A DNA stretch of 39,229 nucleotides from a virus. Within the stretch, counting starts at the first letter, position 1, and every line of letters starts with the position of its first letter. The DNA is taken from IMG/VR virus record IMGVR_UViG_3300036715_000378, positions 1 through 39,229 of that record; one strand, 5' to 3'. A program made the translations under genes and the position numbers. The notes beneath the pieces were generated by a model. The model worked only from the letters and a program-made list of their open reading frames with translations, did not search any database and had not been told where the DNA came from. Positions 31,861 to 38,389 of the stretch are shown here, piece by piece.

Positions 31861-33495
31861 TTATTCGTCATCATGGTTGGTATATGTAAAATCGCCACGT
31901 AGAATCATTAACCCTATATTTGCAAATACTACACTATGAACCCAGTCATCAGAGCCATCATCATCTTTACGATATAGTCTCTTACCTGCTCTAGATTCTT
32001 CTTCGAACATACATAATGCATGATCCCAGTACTTGCCTGTTATTTCAAAACTAGGTGCTTCAAAAAACTTTCTACCTAATTTGAATTTCATTATAACAGA
32101 GTCTATGCAAGATGTCCTATCTGCTGCGTAATATCTACCATCCTTATCCCAACGCAGGGTGTTCTTTGCTGTAACGTAGTTAATAGATACTACTTTATCA
32201 TGGCCCAGTTTATTAGCCAACAACTCCCACTGAAGCTTACCGACTCCTCTGTCCATAGACATAATCTGGCAATTGAACTGAGTGTACAAGTCTGCTGCGC
32301 GTTTAACTTGATCGAGAATGTCAGTACCCTGAACTATCTCACTATGTAGTAAGTAAAGCTTACCCATGTAGTCTGAGCCAATAACAGAGAAGGCAGTAAA
32401 GGATTTAGTTGTTCCGGTCACAGACCAGTCACACCCAATCACTACCTGGTTTAAACCACGGTAGTCGGTTGGCCAGCAAGTGTCAAACTCTTTCTTGTCT
32501 GGGTTACAACAGTTGCGAGCTTCTGTTAGAGATAAGATTCTACCCCCACTACCTGAAGCAATGCCGAACACCTCATTACACAACTTAGGTAAAGAATAGT
32601 CTCTAATTTTTTCCTGTAAGTCAGCCCATTTGTTTGGAGCTACTCGAGAGCCAAAGATAATCTGAGGCATGTGAAAACCCATAGACTCATTAGAAGGTTT
32701 CATAGATACCCACTGTCCAGTAGTAATGTCTATTGGTTTAAAGCAGTGTGGGCAGGAAGGACCTAATTTAGAGGAAGAAATTAATAGACATGTTTCTAAG
32801 TCATGAGGGACGGCATACTTACCACAATGAGTACACTTGGTTACCCACTCATTTTGACAGCTACGTTTCCACAGCAAGTCTAAACTACCGCCTTCATTTT
32901 TTGCAGTACCAGTGAAGCGTTTGTATGCATAAGGAGAAGCTGCTAAAGTCTCTTGAAGAATAGGAATAGTATCTAAAGAGATGTCTTGAATCTCGTCCAT
33001 CAATAAGCTATCCGCGTTTACTCCTCGAACTCTATCTGCAGAAGCTTCTGTGTCAGCGTAGCCAAGATATATGATAGAGCCATTAGTAAAGCTCTTCTGG
33101 AATACGTTCTTCTTAGTAGAAGGATCTGTAAAGTGTTTCTTGATAAGCGGATTAGACATGTAAGGGTCTAGGTAGGCTGTCGAGAATCTCGAAGTCTGCC
33201 CACTCAAAGGTGCTATATACAATGTGTTAAAGTAATTCCGGATTATGCTCTGTGAAATAGAGGCACCGCCCATCATTACGGATTTGCCGATCAGCAAATA
33301 TCACCCCCCCATCTTGCTCCAATTTCAGAAGACTAGACAGGGGGGTGACTACTGCCGCCCCGCAACCAGCACTAGGCTTTTAGGAGTTATATCATACACT
33401 GGAATAAAAGGTTCATATCCGTTAAAGGATAAAGGCTTACCTTTTAATCGTAGAATTGATTTAGCAAAGTCTGAAGGCTTAATATCAAATTTCAT
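31861..33495 (-). CDS. Terminase large subunit, interrupted in its Walker A motif
   Basis: ATPase-nuclease that packages DNA into the procapsid. The start at 33495 (AAGGAAT ribosome site) gives 48 residues ending LVLVAGRQ and a TAG. After 60 nt with three in-frame stops the same frame continues IGKSVMMGG. Together this gives AGRQ-IGKS, the Walker A of terminases, so both parts clearly belong to one gene. Walker B is in ADSLLMDEIQD. Zinc-type pairs CTHC and CPHC lie about 150-185 residues into the second part. The nuclease domain has VIGCDWSVTG and DRGVGKLQWE. The second part could also start at TTG 33297 (478 residues). Packaging activity depends on how the gap is bridged. Confidence 0.85.
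33292..33354 (-). other. 60-nt stop-containing hairpin inside the terminase P-loop
   Basis: The inserted segment is 33292-33351, following codon CAG (33354-33352). It contains TAG first and two TGA, all in frame. The core is a perfect 9-bp inverted repeat (TCACCCCCC at 33348-33340 and GGGGGGTGA at 33309-33301) with a 30-nt loop. CAGTAG can extend it by pairing with TTGCTG (two wobbles) over a 3-nt bulge, so the helix starts at the last codon before the gap and ends at the last triplet before it resumes. Inside the loop GGAG stands ahead of an ATG, and GGGGGGTGAT before TTG resembles an extended Shine-Dalgarno sequence. Confidence 0.75.
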
Positions 33496-33514
33496 TTAGT
33501 ATTCCTTGTTAAGT

Positions 33515-33533
33515 AAAAGCCGTAGGCTTTTTT
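33515..33533 (+). terminator. Small terminator-like hairpin between divergent operons
   Basis: AAAAGCC / GGCTTTT, 7-bp stem with a 3-nt loop, followed by more T on the plus strand. It lies 20 bases upstream of the terminase ATG and before the plus-strand promoter region. On the plus strand it could stop antisense transcripts coming through the terminase; on the minus strand it would sit in the terminase leader. Strength is uncertain. Confidence 0.45.
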
Positions 33534-33580
33534 ATTAGTAGTAGTAGTTTAACACGTTTCAATAAAAGCGATTCTATTGG

Positions 33581-33588
33581 TATAAATA
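33581..33588 (+). promoter_or_regulatory. TATAAATA box, T4 late-promoter-like
   Basis: The exact octamer of T4 late promoters (recognised there by gp55 with host polymerase). It sits about 134 bases before the Ubl gene ATG on the plus strand. The window also encodes a sigma-like protein, so a late-type promoter is plausible. AT-rich DNA can produce the octamer by chance. Confidence 0.4.
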
Positions 33589-33629
33589 ATATAGACAGAT
33601 ATGTTAGCTATTGATTGCCGTGTGGCTCA

Positions 33630-33646
33630 TATAATCTATAGATTAT
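33630..33646. promoter_or_regulatory. TATAAT box overlapped by 16-bp palindrome
   Basis: TATAAT (33630-33635) overlaps the perfect palindrome ATAATCTATAGATTAT (33631-33646). It lies about 90 bases before the Ubl ATG. No good -35 box is seen at 17 bp (GCTATT), so the promoter call is weak. The palindrome is a candidate operator for a dimeric regulator. A second inverted repeat, TTTCG-TTAAG-CGAAA, follows at 33649-33663. Confidence 0.4.
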
Positions 33647-33721
33647 TTTTTCGTTAAGCGAAACAAACTCTGTCTAATTTTTTTTATCGATACTAAAAAT
33701 TTTAACTTTTAAGGAAATAAT

Positions 33722-33997
33722 ATGTCATCAGTTGCAATATCAACAACAGAATTTACAGTAACCAGCACCGGTCAAGATTTCTCTATCCCAGGCGATTGGA
33801 CTCCAGCTCAGATCGTTAACATGTATGGTACAACCATTCCTGGTTTGGGTAACATGGATTCTACCGCTGAAGTAGATGGCTCTACTCGTAAAATCACCTT
33901 CCGTCCTAAGACAGGTACTAAAGGTGCTCGTTTACTTAAGACTGGTGTAAAAGGTGCTAGTTTATTTAAGCGTGTTGTGAATTTCTTAATTGGCTAA
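33722..33997 (+). CDS. Ubiquitin-like protein, PRTRC protein C-like
   Basis: 91 residues, first gene of the plus operon, preceded by AAGGAAAT. Residues about 10-68 fit the short beta-grasp protein of PRTRC loci: FTVTSTGQDFSIPG, DWTPAQIVNMYGTTIPGLGN, RKITFRPKTGTKG. The closing GTKG (65-68) corresponds to the usual end of that family. An extension follows as an imperfect 10-residue duplication (KTGTKGARLL / KTGVKGASLF) and a hydrophobic, basic tail ending FLIG. Ub-like modifiers act through a C-terminal Gly activated by E1; here Gly68, Gly78 or the terminal Gly91 are candidates. Coding context (E1, E2-like and JAB downstream) strongly supports the role. The family call is from memory of the motif. 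Confidence 0.7.
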   Translation: MSSVAISTTEFTVTSTGQDFSIPGDWTPAQIVNMYGTTIPGLGNMDSTAEVDGSTRKITFRPKTGTKGARLLKTGVKGASLFKRVVNFLIG

Positions 33998-34022
33998 TAA
34001 CTAGCTAGTCTAGTTGTTGTTG

Positions 34023-34052
34023 AAGCAGGGGTTTAACTCTCCTGCTTTTTTT
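34023..34052 (+). terminator. Rho-independent terminator after the Ubl gene
   Basis: AAGCAGG / CCTGCTT stem with an 11-nt loop, followed by a T-run on the plus strand. It lies 25 bases past the Ubl stop and 30 bases before the next gene. No promoter of obvious quality is seen between it and the next gene, so it probably works as a partial terminator and makes the Ubl mRNA more abundant than that of the enzymes. Confidence 0.8.
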
Positions 34053-34081
34053 AGTTTACAAATAAATAAGGGTATAGGATT

Positions 34082-34756
34082 ATGTCCAATGATCTTGAGT
34101 CTGCCATAGAGACGTTAAATAGTTATGAAGGAATGTCTAACAAGCTAGTGCACATCAAGGCTATTGGACATAACGCCTGTATAAAGTCTCTTTGTAAGTA
34201 TTCTAATTTCAAGCTTAAAGAGCTAGGTCTGGTAACTGCCGGCTATAGTAAGACTATAGACTTATATCGCCCTATAGGCAATCTAAGAACGTTATGGCAA
34301 ATTATTTCTCGTAATCTCAGAGTTAGAATTCCATATCTAGCACCTATGGAGGCAGAGTTTGTTAAAGTGCGTAATGATTACGTAAGTCTTCGTCCTCATC
34401 CAAGCCCTAGAGTTGAAAGATACCTGCGTATGATGGGTAGAAAGTTAAGTACGCTTACAAATGGTACCTACGAGCTTATTAGTAGGTATGACTCTGAGAT
34501 GGATCGAGAAATTTGGATATTAAGGTATTGTGACATAGTACCTTCTAAGGCTAACAGAATCTATGCTTTTAGTATTTTAGAAATGCTAGAGGATATGCTT
34601 CAGGTTCTAGCCACTCTTCATAGAGAGATGTGCATAAGAGACGATATTCTTCCAGATAACTTCTTCCTTAGAGAGGAGGGTGTGCAGCCTGTGGAAGTGG
34701 TACCCGTCCAACCAGTAATCGAAACCGTCACTATACTAGGAGATATAAATGAGTGA
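34082..34756 (+). CDS. Unknown protein of the Ubl operon (224 aa)
   Basis: Helix-rich, basic protein. N-terminal LESAIETLNSYEGMSNKLVH, then LRTLWQIISRNLRVRIPYLA, LRPHPSPRVERYLRMMGRKL, and YAFSILEMLEDMLQVLATLH; a short proline/valine tail (VEVVPVQPVIETV) follows. No catalytic or zinc motif is seen. It overlaps the next gene by 8 bases. In the plasmid PRTRC loci I recall that extra proteins (E, F) sit between the C and B genes, so by position this may correspond to one of them; I see no sequence evidence for that. Its place in the operon suggests a partner or substrate of the conjugation enzymes. Confidence 0.7.
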   Translation: MSNDLESAIETLNSYEGMSNKLVHIKAIGHNACIKSLCKYSNFKLKELGLVTAGYSKTIDLYRPIGNLRTLWQIISRNLRVRIPYLAPMEAEFVKVRNDYVSLRPHPSPRVERYLRMMGRKLSTLTNGTYELISRYDSEMDREIWILRYCDIVPSKANRIYAFSILEMLEDMLQVLATLHREMCIRDDILPDNFFLREEGVQPVEVVPVQPVIETVTILGDINE

Positions 34757-35015
34757 GCAGGCAGATAAAATTAATATTTTAGATTTCTTGAATCTAAACG
34801 TTGAGACCCTACCTGATGTGTATGAGTCAGGTATGGCTAAATTAAAACTTGCTTTTGAGGTCCCTACTAACTCAAAAGAGCTTACTCAAATCTTTGAACT
34901 ATTCACAAAATATTTTGATGCTAGAGATAGTATTAGAGCTCCTAATCCAAAAGTAATAAGTGATGCAGCCAAGAGAATGCCTCACTTCCAATCCACCGTA
35001 GACTTTTATATTTAA
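34749..35015 (+). CDS. Unknown small protein of the Ubl operon (88 aa)
   Basis: 88 residues, helical, acidic at the N-terminus (SEQADKINILDFLNLNVETL). Then LKLAFEVPTNSKELTQIFEL and DAAKRMPHFQSTVDFYI. Its ATG is inside the end of the 224-residue gene (8-base overlap), so the two are coupled and likely interact. No family is recognised. The gap to the E2-like gene is only 11 bases. Confidence 0.65.
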   Translation: MSEQADKINILDFLNLNVETLPDVYESGMAKLKLAFEVPTNSKELTQIFELFTKYFDARDSIRAPNPKVISDAAKRMPHFQSTVDFYI

Positions 35016-35026
35016 TAGGAAATTAA

Positions 35027-35674
35027 ATGGCACAGAATTTTATAATGCATTCCACGCATGTGGAGTTTGAAACGCCTACTGGTCTAATGAAAGCTTTATC
35101 TTTTGCAGACTTTAAATGCTTAATAGACAAAGCAGTCGAAGCTACTGAAGTAGAAGAGCCTATTTTGTTACCAAGCAATTGCTACTTAATCAGTAGGGCA
35201 GGAGATAATATGAAGCTGTCTTGCTATTACCCTGCTGCTATACGAGAGATTGAGTTTATTAGACGCGTAGACGGAAAGCCTAAAAAACACACGATACCCT
35301 TCCCTAACATGATTCTTAACTTCCTACTAACTAAGTCTGCAGACAAGTGGATTGTTAAAAGTGTCTATTACTACTGTACGGATAAGAAGTTATCTCAGTT
35401 ACCTCTTCGTGCTGTTACTACACAAGACGAAGGTGTTTGGAATAGCCCAATGCCTAACACGTTCGGGGATGCTCATATGTGCTACGGTAGAAACTCCATG
35501 CCTTCAGGATTTGTTGATAACTTCCGAGGCTTGGATTGGTATTTCTCGTTTCTATTCTCAACACCTTTTAATAGTGACCTGAGTATCAGCTGTGTAAAAG
35601 GTACACAGCCTGCAGATTGGATTAATGAGTTATCAGGTATGACAGAGTTTCCATACGCCAGACTAGGTAAGTAA
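35027..35674 (+). CDS. E2-like protein, PRTRC protein B-like
   Basis: 215 residues. The fold pattern is beta-rich N-terminus (HVEFETPTGLMKALSFADF), middle strands (MKLSCYYPAAIREIEF, KHTIPFPNMILNFLL), then WIVKSVYYYC. Near the end is SPMPNTFGDAHMCYGRN with Cys152 in HMCYGRN, followed by WYFSFLFSTPFNSDLS. PRTRC protein B proteins, considered E2-like in comparative studies, have an equivalent P-x-N-x-G-x-x-C-x-G segment where the Cys would carry the Ubl thioester. I see that pattern here but without a search cannot rank it above other possibilities. The position between the small proteins and the JAB gene agrees with the PRTRC order. Confidence 0.6.
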   Translation: MAQNFIMHSTHVEFETPTGLMKALSFADFKCLIDKAVEATEVEEPILLPSNCYLISRAGDNMKLSCYYPAAIREIEFIRRVDGKPKKHTIPFPNMILNFLLTKSADKWIVKSVYYYCTDKKLSQLPLRAVTTQDEGVWNSPMPNTFGDAHMCYGRNSMPSGFVDNFRGLDWYFSFLFSTPFNSDLSISCVKGTQPADWINELSGMTEFPYARLGK

Positions 35675-35735
35675 CATTCTTAGTCGTTGTTATTAGTTAT
35701 TATTCAATATTGTTAAATTAGAGGAGGATTCCTAA

Positions 35736-37016
35736 ATGAAAGAATTAGTTAAATTTATATCTTGTGTTGTTACCCCAGATGAGTTTGAAGAAGTCAAAGC
35801 TTCAGGAGCATGGTCAGAAATCTATATTAAAGATGGTCTTAACTTCTTCAAATACACGAAGCTTCGAGGCGGTCGTCATGTTACAGTAAAAGTACCAGCT
35901 ATTCCTGGATTGGTTAATAGTGCAGATTCTATTAAAGAAGACATTAACTTCCTTCCTGCTGGAAAGATTCCTGCAACTTTACTTCATGACATCATTGCTT
36001 TCTTTAAAGATGTTATGAGTACAACTAAGCAAGACGTTGAAGCTATGGCTCACATCCTGTGGAATGCTACTGATGGTTACCACATCGCAGTACCTAATCA
36101 AACAATCAGTAAGGCTGCGGTTAGTTATGGGAATGACCATATTAAAGAAGGCGATATAATCGTATTAGATATTCACAGCCATAACACTATGGGCGCATTC
36201 TTTTCTGGAACAGATAACGCAGATGATCGTAACGGTATTTACTACTCAGGAGTAGTCGGTAAATTAAACATGCTAACTCCTGAGTTAGTATGGCGCTTCA
36301 ATATTGGTGCAGAAAAACGCACTGCTTCAGTAACAGACATCTTTGAAGTAGAAGTTCTAGGCAAGTCTAAACCAGAATGGTTAAGCCAAGTCAAGATTCG
36401 TACTGCTCCTGCAGTTCCTCCGTTCAACCCTAATTTAAACTCTGGTGCTCACGATTGGGTAAATAAGTATAAAGGTCCTAATACTCCAGGTGTTCAAGGC
36501 GCTCCAAGATTACCTTCTACCAACATGCGTGATGGGTTTGATAACTTCATGGGTTTTGGTGCTGATGACCTAGGCCCGGCCTTTGCTTTCAGTAGTGGAA
36601 CCAATGATCTGTTCTCACAAGGAACTGACAACTCTTCCCTAGGTCGTATCTCTAAGAAAGAGCGTAAAGCTATTCAGCGGGGAGAAGGTGTATGGCGCAA
36701 TGGTAAGTTCGTGCCTACTACTAATGTGACCCCTATTACTAGCCGTAGTTATAATGAAACTTACGTAGCTGGGCCTTTGGATATGGACGGTCTTGAAGGT
36801 ATTGTCAGTATGGGGGATATGGGTTATACAGAGTCAGAAGATAGCGTCATGATGAATTCTCTTATGAGTGAGGACATTGCAGACGCAATAGGAACCATCG
36901 AAGATGTATTAGAAGATTTAGAAGGAGCAGATGTAGAAATACTTACGCTAATGCGTAAAATGTATGCCATGCTCTCTGGAGCTGGTCAAGCCAAAATAGC
37001 CACTGAAGGAATCTAA
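35736..37016 (+). CDS. JAB/JAMM isopeptidase-like, PRTRC protein A-like
   Basis: 426 residues with a strong ribosome site, GAGGAGG, 9 bases before the ATG. The JAMM metalloprotease signature is complete: Glu102 (DVEAMAHILW), His147 and His149 (LDIHSHN), seven residues, then Ser157 and Asp160 (FFSGTD), i.e. HxHx7Sx2D. This fold hydrolyses peptide or isopeptide bonds after the C-terminal Gly of ubiquitin-like proteins using zinc. It could mature the Ubl or remove it from targets. The N-terminal 70 residues are beta-rich. The C-terminal 210 residues are a low-complexity and acidic extension, with SKKERKAIQRGEGVWRNGKF (about residues 306-325) in it. The E1 gene follows 2 bases after the stop. Confidence 0.85.
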   Translation: MKELVKFISCVVTPDEFEEVKASGAWSEIYIKDGLNFFKYTKLRGGRHVTVKVPAIPGLVNSADSIKEDINFLPAGKIPATLLHDIIAFFKDVMSTTKQDVEAMAHILWNATDGYHIAVPNQTISKAAVSYGNDHIKEGDIIVLDIHSHNTMGAFFSGTDNADDRNGIYYSGVVGKLNMLTPELVWRFNIGAEKRTASVTDIFEVEVLGKSKPEWLSQVKIRTAPAVPPFNPNLNSGAHDWVNKYKGPNTPGVQGAPRLPSTNMRDGFDNFMGFGADDLGPAFAFSSGTNDLFSQGTDNSSLGRISKKERKAIQRGEGVWRNGKFVPTTNVTPITSRSYNETYVAGPLDMDGLEGIVSMGDMGYTESEDSVMMNSLMSEDIADAIGTIEDVLEDLEGADVEILTLMRKMYAMLSGAGQAKIATEGI

Positions 37017-37018
37017 AT

Positions 37019-38389
37019 ATGTTTGAATTTATCCCGAATACAGTTCCTAATACTGTAGTAGTAGTGGGTGCTGGTGGTACAGGGGGTAGGTTAATACCTC
37101 TGTTAGCTCAGTTCCTTAAAACAATGCCTTGGGTCATCGACCCTGCTATTATCATTGTTGATGATGATATTGTAGAGGAGAAGAATCTACTACGTCAGAA
37201 TTTTATTCGTGCTGACGTTGGTAGACCTAAAGCAGTAGTTATGGCTGAACGATATTCTCGTGCTTTTAATATTGAGATTATTCCGGTAGTCAAACGAGTG
37301 GAAGGTTATTATCGAGAGCATAAAGTACTCTTCGAAAACCGCACTACAGATAATGGTTCTCCTATTGTTGTTATGTGTGTTGACTCAGCTGATGCACGTA
37401 GAGCTATTTTAAAAGCTTTCTACTCAGTTAGTGGTAGTGGGCAACCGTTATTTATTGATGCAGGTAACGAGGATTCCTTTGGTCAAGTAATGGCGTTTCA
37501 TGCTCAGTACTTAACTAGGTCTGAGGGCTATAGTTTCCAGGATTACCTGAATCAATATGAAATTCCTCCTATGTTGCCGGTTCGTGTTAGAGTCCCTAGC
37601 CTATACATTGATTTGGATTTCTACGCAAACTTGGTTGATACACCTGGGGGTAGCTGTGCTGACTTAGACCAGACCTTGGCTATTAATGCGATGATGGCAA
37701 CCAGTATTATGGGTGTCATTCAGAACTACTACTATGTCAAGCCTTTTACCACAACTCGCATCAACTTGGTCGTAGCTCAAGGAGGTTCTTCTAACATGTC
37801 TGACCTTAGAGGAATGTATAATATCGCCAGTACAACACCAATCAGGGAGTTAGTAGAATCCAGTAATCTTCGTGGTACTAGCTTAGACTCTCTATTCAGT
37901 GAGGCTAGACGCAGCTATGATCTGTTAATGGAGGAGCAGCGAGAAGCAGCGAGAGTATTAAAGGAAGCAGAGGAAGCTCGGGCTAAAGCTGAGAAGATTC
38001 TAGCTGAGGCTATGGCTAAGGAGAGGGCTGAGGCTGAGGCTCTGGCTATGGCCGAGGATGCTACAGTAGTAGTAGAAACTCCGGAGATGCAAAGTATGCG
38101 TGTTCGCATCGAGGAGTATCATCAGGACCAGTTATCAGAAATGAATGCTATTGCTGTTAATGCTATTAATGCTAGTAGAGGAGAGAGCACAGCAGCCACT
38201 GTACTGACAGAGGAGATGGATGCAGAAATGTATAGAGATGCTATTGCTGCGGCTATGGGGACTGGTAGAACAACGACAGTTAACGTCACAGATGGTGAAA
38301 TAGATGGAATACCTAATTCTACTGTTATGCTGGATGTTAGTGAAGCCGGGCTTGAGGTGCTTATTTCAGCACTTTCAGCTCAGTCCTAG
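37019..38389 (+). CDS. E1/ThiF-like Ubl-activating enzyme, PRTRC ThiF-like
   Basis: 456 residues. The nucleotide-binding Rossmann motif is VVVGAGGTGG (GAGGTGG at 17-23), then IIIVDDD (44-50), and EKNLLRQNFIRADVGRPKA (54-72) with Asn56, Arg59, Gln60 and Lys71 as in E1 adenylation sites. VMCVDSADARRAIL (118-131) gives the acidic residue that binds magnesium. Cys213, in GGSCADLDQTLAINAMMATS, matches the S-C-S/x-L-x-x-Q-x-L-x-I-N region of PRTRC ThiF and is the candidate thioester cysteine. A charged coiled-coil (about 305-350) and a C-terminal tail follow. These enzymes adenylate the Ubl C-terminal Gly. Translation seems coupled to the JAB gene. Confidence 0.85.
   Translation: MFEFIPNTVPNTVVVVGAGGTGGRLIPLLAQFLKTMPWVIDPAIIIVDDDIVEEKNLLRQNFIRADVGRPKAVVMAERYSRAFNIEIIPVVKRVEGYYREHKVLFENRTTDNGSPIVVMCVDSADARRAILKAFYSVSGSGQPLFIDAGNEDSFGQVMAFHAQYLTRSEGYSFQDYLNQYEIPPMLPVRVRVPSLYIDLDFYANLVDTPGGSCADLDQTLAINAMMATSIMGVIQNYYYVKPFTTTRINLVVAQGGSSNMSDLRGMYNIASTTPIRELVESSNLRGTSLDSLFSEARRSYDLLMEEQREAARVLKEAEEARAKAEKILAEAMAKERAEAEALAMAEDATVVVETPEMQSMRVRIEEYHQDQLSEMNAIAVNAINASRGESTAATVLTEEMDAEMYRDAIAAAMGTGRTTTVNVTDGEIDGIPNSTVMLDVSEAGLEVLISALSAQS

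Follow-up and report, generated by a model that had tools for sequence, protein, structure and literature searches.

Conjugation of ubiquitin-like proteins (Ubl) is known in bacteria mainly as an anti-phage defence and from the uncharacterised PRTRC loci of plasmids (ParB-related, ThiF-related cassettes). The PRTRC-type pathway was predicted in 2006 and is, to our knowledge, untested; no paper linking PRTRC with ubiquitin or describing a phage-encoded set was found in the open-access papers searched, subscription papers and preprints lying outside the search. The type 6d operons, listed by Iyer et al. (2006) from bacterial genomes and not from lytic phages, are composed of a Ubl, a JAB peptidase, an activating enzyme (E1), a conjugating enzyme (E2) and a rapidly diverging helical protein, and their E2 lacks the classical histidine but keeps an absolutely conserved one downstream (PMC1779556). 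Here, we describe an operon from a virus record of 39,229 bases (IMG/VR record IMGVR_UViG_3300036715_000378, in full hereafter the window), in which six plus-strand open reading frames (ORFs) occupy positions 33722-38389. Judged from its sequence, this operon very probably specifies a complete phage-encoded Ubl conjugation and deconjugation pathway, consisting of the PRTRC/6d enzymatic core devoid of partition genes; this estimate covers the pathway only and not its targets.

The layout put forward in an earlier note on this DNA, comprising a 91-residue beta-grasp Ubl, an E2-like protein, a JAMM protein and a ThiF protein among six genes, was retrieved entirely, with all ORFs and motifs at the positions it had given. 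IMG/VR was scanned with E1, JAB and E2 alignments, followed by profile mapping, and the residue and hairpin counts presented below were drawn from 44-49 non-redundant loci. The ThiF/E1-like Ubl-activating enzyme (37019-38389, plus strand, 456 aa) matched Pfam family PF00899 (2.2e-15, over cut-off) and displayed motifs GAGGTGG and NLLRQN, residues Lys71, Asp122 and Cys213, and a long C-terminal extension. R59, K71, D122 and C213 were present in 49/49 loci. Among PDB sequences the E1 profile matched 9egc/9egb (a ThiF-type protein), MccB and eukaryotic E1s; nothing convincing was found there with the E2, Ubl and JAB profiles. In Vibrio phage D69, the annotated E1 coding sequence starts ~75 codons late, homology continuing upstream without an ATG start (L003:7923-8909). 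The JAB/JAMM metallopeptidase (35736-37016, plus strand, 426 aa), the predicted Ubl processing and deconjugation enzyme, matched PF14464 (Prok-JAB; 9.6e-7, over cut-off). Its JAMM residues Glu102, His147, His149, Ser157 and Asp160 were kept in 46-47 of 47 loci.

The E2-like enzyme (35027-35674, plus strand) matched PF14460 (Prok-E2_D) with an E-value of 2.3e-6 and 27.9 bits against a cut-off of 25, and its segment PMPNTFGDAHMCYG contains the active-site residue Cys152. This match, together with the presence of N144 and C152 in all 48 loci, strengthens what the earlier note had taken for the weakest link of the set. The active-site consensus is P-F-P-N-x-Y-x-x-G-x-x-C, with a hydrophobic residue where the classical histidine stands: F, M or L occupied this position in 46/48 loci and histidine in none of the 48. 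The spacing between asparagine and cysteine matches that of eukaryotic E2s (HPN...C). No conserved histidine column was found downstream of the cysteine, the likely position being occupied by aspartate in 44/48 loci and by histidine in 3/48. The predicted structure was confident (pLDDT, the predicted local distance difference test, of 93.7), and among viral models Foldseek retrieved, among others, a protein of Acinetobacter phage ME3 (1.5e-4). In ME3, PRTRC A and ThiF are both annotated, each in a cluster of its own, and the two clusters lie close together.

The first gene encodes the Ubl modifier precursor (33722-33997, plus strand, 91 aa), the core of which (residues 1-68) ends with RPKTGTKG and is followed by a 23-aa tail, ARLLKTGVKGASLFKRVVNFLIG. 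Searched alone, the window Ubl matched no family; its identity is backed by its relatives, by the match of the phage Ubl profile to annotated PRTRC protein C and by a confident AlphaFold model, which displayed a beta-beta-alpha-beta-beta domain (pLDDT >90 over residues 11-60) and a disordered tail. G65, K67 and G68 were invariant in a 60-row alignment, GxKG being found in every row, and the gene stopped exactly at GxKG in 22 single Ubl genes and five tandem ones. Salmonella phage Arash has a 66-aa Ubl ORF, absent from its GenBank annotation, that ends exactly in RRTGTKG; at gp251c, the GenBank frame 102-320 is wrong and the Ubl ORF lies at 107-307 (record L004). Tandem Ubls of two to six units occurred in several phages, with three units in the first gene of the D69 operon and four in that of Bacillus phage KLEB27-3, each ending with GTKG or GVKG. 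Repeats within one gene were 98-99% identical at the protein level in three of the six genes tested, with a synonymous divergence (dS) of 1.4 to saturation. Polyubiquitin genes, all units of which have to mature to the same modifier, show this pattern.

The tail of the window Ubl echoes the end of its core (KTGTKGARLL versus KTGVKGASLF), so that the precursor may be trimmed at the first site (GTKG) or at the second one in the tail (GVKG). In several Ubl precursors, the last GxKG was followed by unrelated basic-hydrophobic tails (window 33926-33994; L040, L044, L092), which are perhaps a processing or targeting signal. Just 3' of the Ubl gene, an intrinsic terminator-like hairpin was detected by a hairpin scan (34022-34048, plus strand), and 27 of the 44 loci had a comparable one, which occurred in 1.4% of dinucleotide shuffles. 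The natural reading of this hairpin would be that the Ubl is made in excess over the enzymes; such an excess is predicted because the Ubl gene comes first, is directly followed by the hairpin and is often present in tandem copies in relatives.

Operons with the order Ubl-(p2/p3)-E2-JAB-E1 on one strand were found in ~60 viral contigs, many of them 100-265 kb long, and the set is also present in cultured phages, namely Salmonella phage Arash, the Vibrio D69 group and Bacillus KLEB27-3. Recurrence of the full set in ~60 contigs with conserved catalytic residues is far from chance. Pairwise ratios of nonsynonymous to synonymous substitutions (dN/dS) between related phages were mostly 0.02-0.3, the operon genes thus being under purifying selection. 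In the window, the minus strand encodes virion functions (terminase, baseplate wedge, tail fibre, endolysin) and a sigma factor, as assigned with PHROGs; gene content and neighbours agree with the earlier description of a phage-carried conjugation and deconjugation set placed between virion modules. The window most likely derives from a large phage genome, because its terminase is related to those of Arash (46% identity; 180 kb) and of the D69 group (40%; 187 kb). A terminase scan yielded 19 loci, in which the Ubl gene was divergent from and adjacent to the terminase gene in 17/17 contigs extending past the terminase start, the remaining two beginning inside the terminase. E2, JAB and E1 followed wherever the contig was long enough. 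The operon is therefore a fixed core module of this terminase lineage. A scan of bacterial genomes gave few close relatives, mainly two contigs of metagenome-assembled genomes from Myxococcota. In the E1 tree, plasmid PRTRC rows were placed inside a mostly phage tree; deep support was weak, so that transfer between plasmids and phages may have run in either direction.

That the PRTRC loci are relatives, as proposed previously, was borne out by profile searches. NCBIfam models PRTRC_A (3e-20), PRTRC_ThiF (2e-25) and, weakly, PRTRC_B matched window proteins, and the phage profiles matched the annotated genes of Azospira plasmid pAZI09 for PRTRC C (2e-9), B (4e-8), A (2e-11) and ThiF (2e-53). Protein C of pAZI09 ends with GVGTKG, and the order C-small-F-B-A-ThiF resembles that of the phages. 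The cassettes of pAZI09 and of pTmex-577K from Pseudomonas putida share with the phages a Ubl (C), a small gene, an F-sized gene, an E2 (B), a JAB (A, annotated in pAZI09) and a ThiF in nearly the same order. In contrast, PRTRC ParB (TIGR03734), ParB_N (PF02195) and PRTRC protein D (TIGR03739) were each found in none of 22 phage records, which are possibly fragments, whereas TIGR03734 and TIGR03739 were each present in both plasmid controls, above cut-off in one. With type 6d the phages share the Ubl, JAB, E1 and E2 components, an E2 devoid of the HPN histidine and a free-standing Ubl with a conserved C-terminal glycine, but the phage E2 displays aspartate where the 6d E2 has its downstream histidine. 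We class the operon as a phage variant of the PRTRC/6d kind that lacks ParB and withhold the strict PRTRC label because of the missing ParB and protein D, the tandem poly-Ubl genes of many phages, the aspartate in place of the second E2 histidine and scores below the model cut-offs. Among six plasmid records that have PRTRC-like loci, five carried a dnaN sliding clamp gene (L136, L137, L140, L141, Stanieria plasmid), which lay close to the locus in four, and the clamp is a target worth testing for plasmid PRTRC systems. Such a link was rejected for the phages, no DnaN domain being found in the 22 records.

Between the Ubl and E2 genes lie p2 (34082-34756, plus strand, 224 aa) and p3 (34749-35015, plus strand, 88 aa). 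The rapidly diverging p2 is by position the counterpart of the PRTRC-F/6d helical gene; its position and size were conserved in lineages and its sequence only weakly, and it was too divergent to be linked to the 6d helical family. A weak match of p2 to PADLOC model PD-T4-6 around RDDILPDNFFL, which would have made it a protein kinase, was attributed to chance, the motif being missing in the positional counterparts of relatives. Protein p3 ends with DFYI, and a small gene with C-terminal [FY][VIL] or GF was present in 38/44 loci; this end, often with acidic residues before it, was shared by proteins that otherwise diverge. Upstream of the operon, the AT-rich intergenic region separating the divergent terminase and Ubl genes (33500-33721, no strand assigned) is the presumed promoter region. 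Sigma-70-like promoter matches in the window scan were no commoner than in shuffles.

The neighbouring terminase gene is itself interrupted in its Walker A motif at 33285-33355 (minus strand), where GRQ is followed by TAG, ~60 nt and IGKS. The ~60-nt insert forms a very stable hairpin, the region folding at -47.7 kcal/mol (z -4.8). Full-length relatives were all uninterrupted and displayed GRQ[IV]GK[ST] or SRQVGKT; the terminase of a near-identical contig (L002/L177) starts downstream at the same point as that of the window. A translational-bypass element, an intron-like sequence and a disruption are candidate readings of this insert. In D69, too, the terminase as annotated begins at this point, with MQVGKS (L196:1162-1785, L176:1-1506), and a homing endonuclease is encoded at the end of the D69 record, which is possibly circularly permuted. 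Insertions may recur at the Walker A site in this lineage.

A role in genome partition, considered in the earlier note, would agree with the name PRTRC and with the fact that plasmid PRTRC A, B, C and ThiF are clear homologues, and plasmid-like replicon maintenance could be imagined. It is disfavoured to the point of being nearly negligible by the lack of ParB, protein D and ParB_N in the 22 phage records, which may be fragments, and by the lack there of the DnaN clamp encountered on most of the plasmids. A sulfur-carrier pathway of the ThiS/MoaD kind, in which the Ubl would be thiocarboxylated for cofactor or metabolite synthesis and JAB would only mature the carrier, is suggested by the ThiF/MoeB type of the E1 and by a small beta-grasp protein with a C-terminal glycine. 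Against this, loci devoid of an E2-like partner were very rare, no gene of the operon was recognised as one for sulfur transfer, the Ubl ends with GxKG instead of GG and a tandem poly-Ubl is characteristic of protein modifiers, all of which renders this pathway very unlikely. Phages lambda and T1 also carry a JAB (gpK) and a Ubl (gpI) near tail genes, and both adjacency to virion genes and co-occurrence of deconjugating enzyme and Ubl (PMC12908700, PMC1779556) would be expected if JAB merely cleaved a Ubl off a structural protein during tail assembly, as is reported for lambda gpK/gpI. But gpI is a fusion domain that is cleaved off without any E1 or E2, whereas the phage Ubl considered here is mostly free-standing or poly-Ubl, the window Ubl stands alone, and E1 and E2 with intact catalytic residues accompany it; intramolecular processing hardly seems credible.

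Counter-defence deserves more attention and is nevertheless unlikely. Hosts deploy Ubl-type conjugation against phages (PMC11354881, PMC10097602), and the phage Ubl and enzymes could serve as decoys for host Bil or CBASS Cap2/Cap3 or rob these systems of substrate, JAB stripping host Ubl from virions. For this purpose a deconjugating enzyme would suffice, with no need for purifying selection on a Ubl, E1 and E2 to match it, and the operon is a core element with a fixed position in its lineage instead of an accessory one, which also makes the earlier suggestion of counter-defence less likely as the sole role. Further, the phage Ubl and E2 are of PRTRC type and not of Bil type. Bil (BilABCD) has the same four-part logic of Ubl, E2, JAB and E1 but defends bacteria; its BilD has paired adenylation domains (PMC11354881), and its BilB displays CEHH (Cys, +6 Glu, +8 His, +13 His; PMC11354881), where the window E2 has Cys152, Met158, Ser160 and Asn165. 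CBASS relies on similar E1/E2 and JAB chemistry, but Cap2 is an E1-E2 fusion (PMC12355090), whereas the phage enzymes are separate and come with their own Ubl; the window gave only weak matches to the E1-E2 models of PADLOC.

A Ubl conjugation chemistry is, in contrast to these alternatives, strongly predicted. JAB would trim the Ubl precursor at GTKG or at the GVKG repeat of the tail, E1 would adenylate the C-terminal glycine of the Ubl and form a thioester on Cys213, and the Ubl would then pass to Cys152 of the E2, which would attach it to target amines, from which JAB would remove it again. Gene content, homology, conserved catalytic residues, purifying selection and core conservation are what the sequences show; reactions, stoichiometry and targets are what we infer from them. 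Phage late or virion proteins are tentatively the likeliest targets, favoured by the fixed place of this core operon between the terminase and tail genes and by the annotation of the Arash E1 and E2 as 'structural protein'. Host proteins come second and are only slightly less likely.

Several observations weigh against the pathway or these targets. The E2 model had no significant PDB match with Foldseek, so that this assignment rests on Pfam match, motif and context, and the Ubl model gave weak beta-grasp matches only; the structure prediction proposed earlier thus supported a beta-grasp Ubl but left a confident E2 model without a significant PDB neighbour. No E3 was recognised in the operon, the single component lacking from a set that had been called nearly complete; this wording was too modest, E1, E2, Ubl and deconjugating enzyme all being present. 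The NCBIfam matches were below cut-offs (72.6/101.8 bits for PRTRC_A, 16.4/131.45 for PRTRC_B and 89.6/144.75 for PRTRC_ThiF). The 'structural protein' labels of Arash come without a stated method and are scattered through its genome. Finally, virion targets cannot be argued from location in every lineage because the operon of the KLEB27-3 lineage lies among other genes and not beside virion genes.

These phages probably tag proteins during infection. Here, the complete set belongs to phages, in which it is a conserved core module, with polyubiquitin-like genes in relatives, and the cultured carriers Arash, D69 and KLEB27-3 open the function and targets of PRTRC-type Ubl to direct mass-spectrometry testing. 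It is conceivable, if on balance doubtful, that a large lytic phage family depends on its own Ubl system, polyubiquitin-like genes included, for the marking or chaperoning of its own virion proteins in assembly and packaging; if this were true, a bacterial virus would run a complete Ubl cycle for its own life cycle, instead of being its target.

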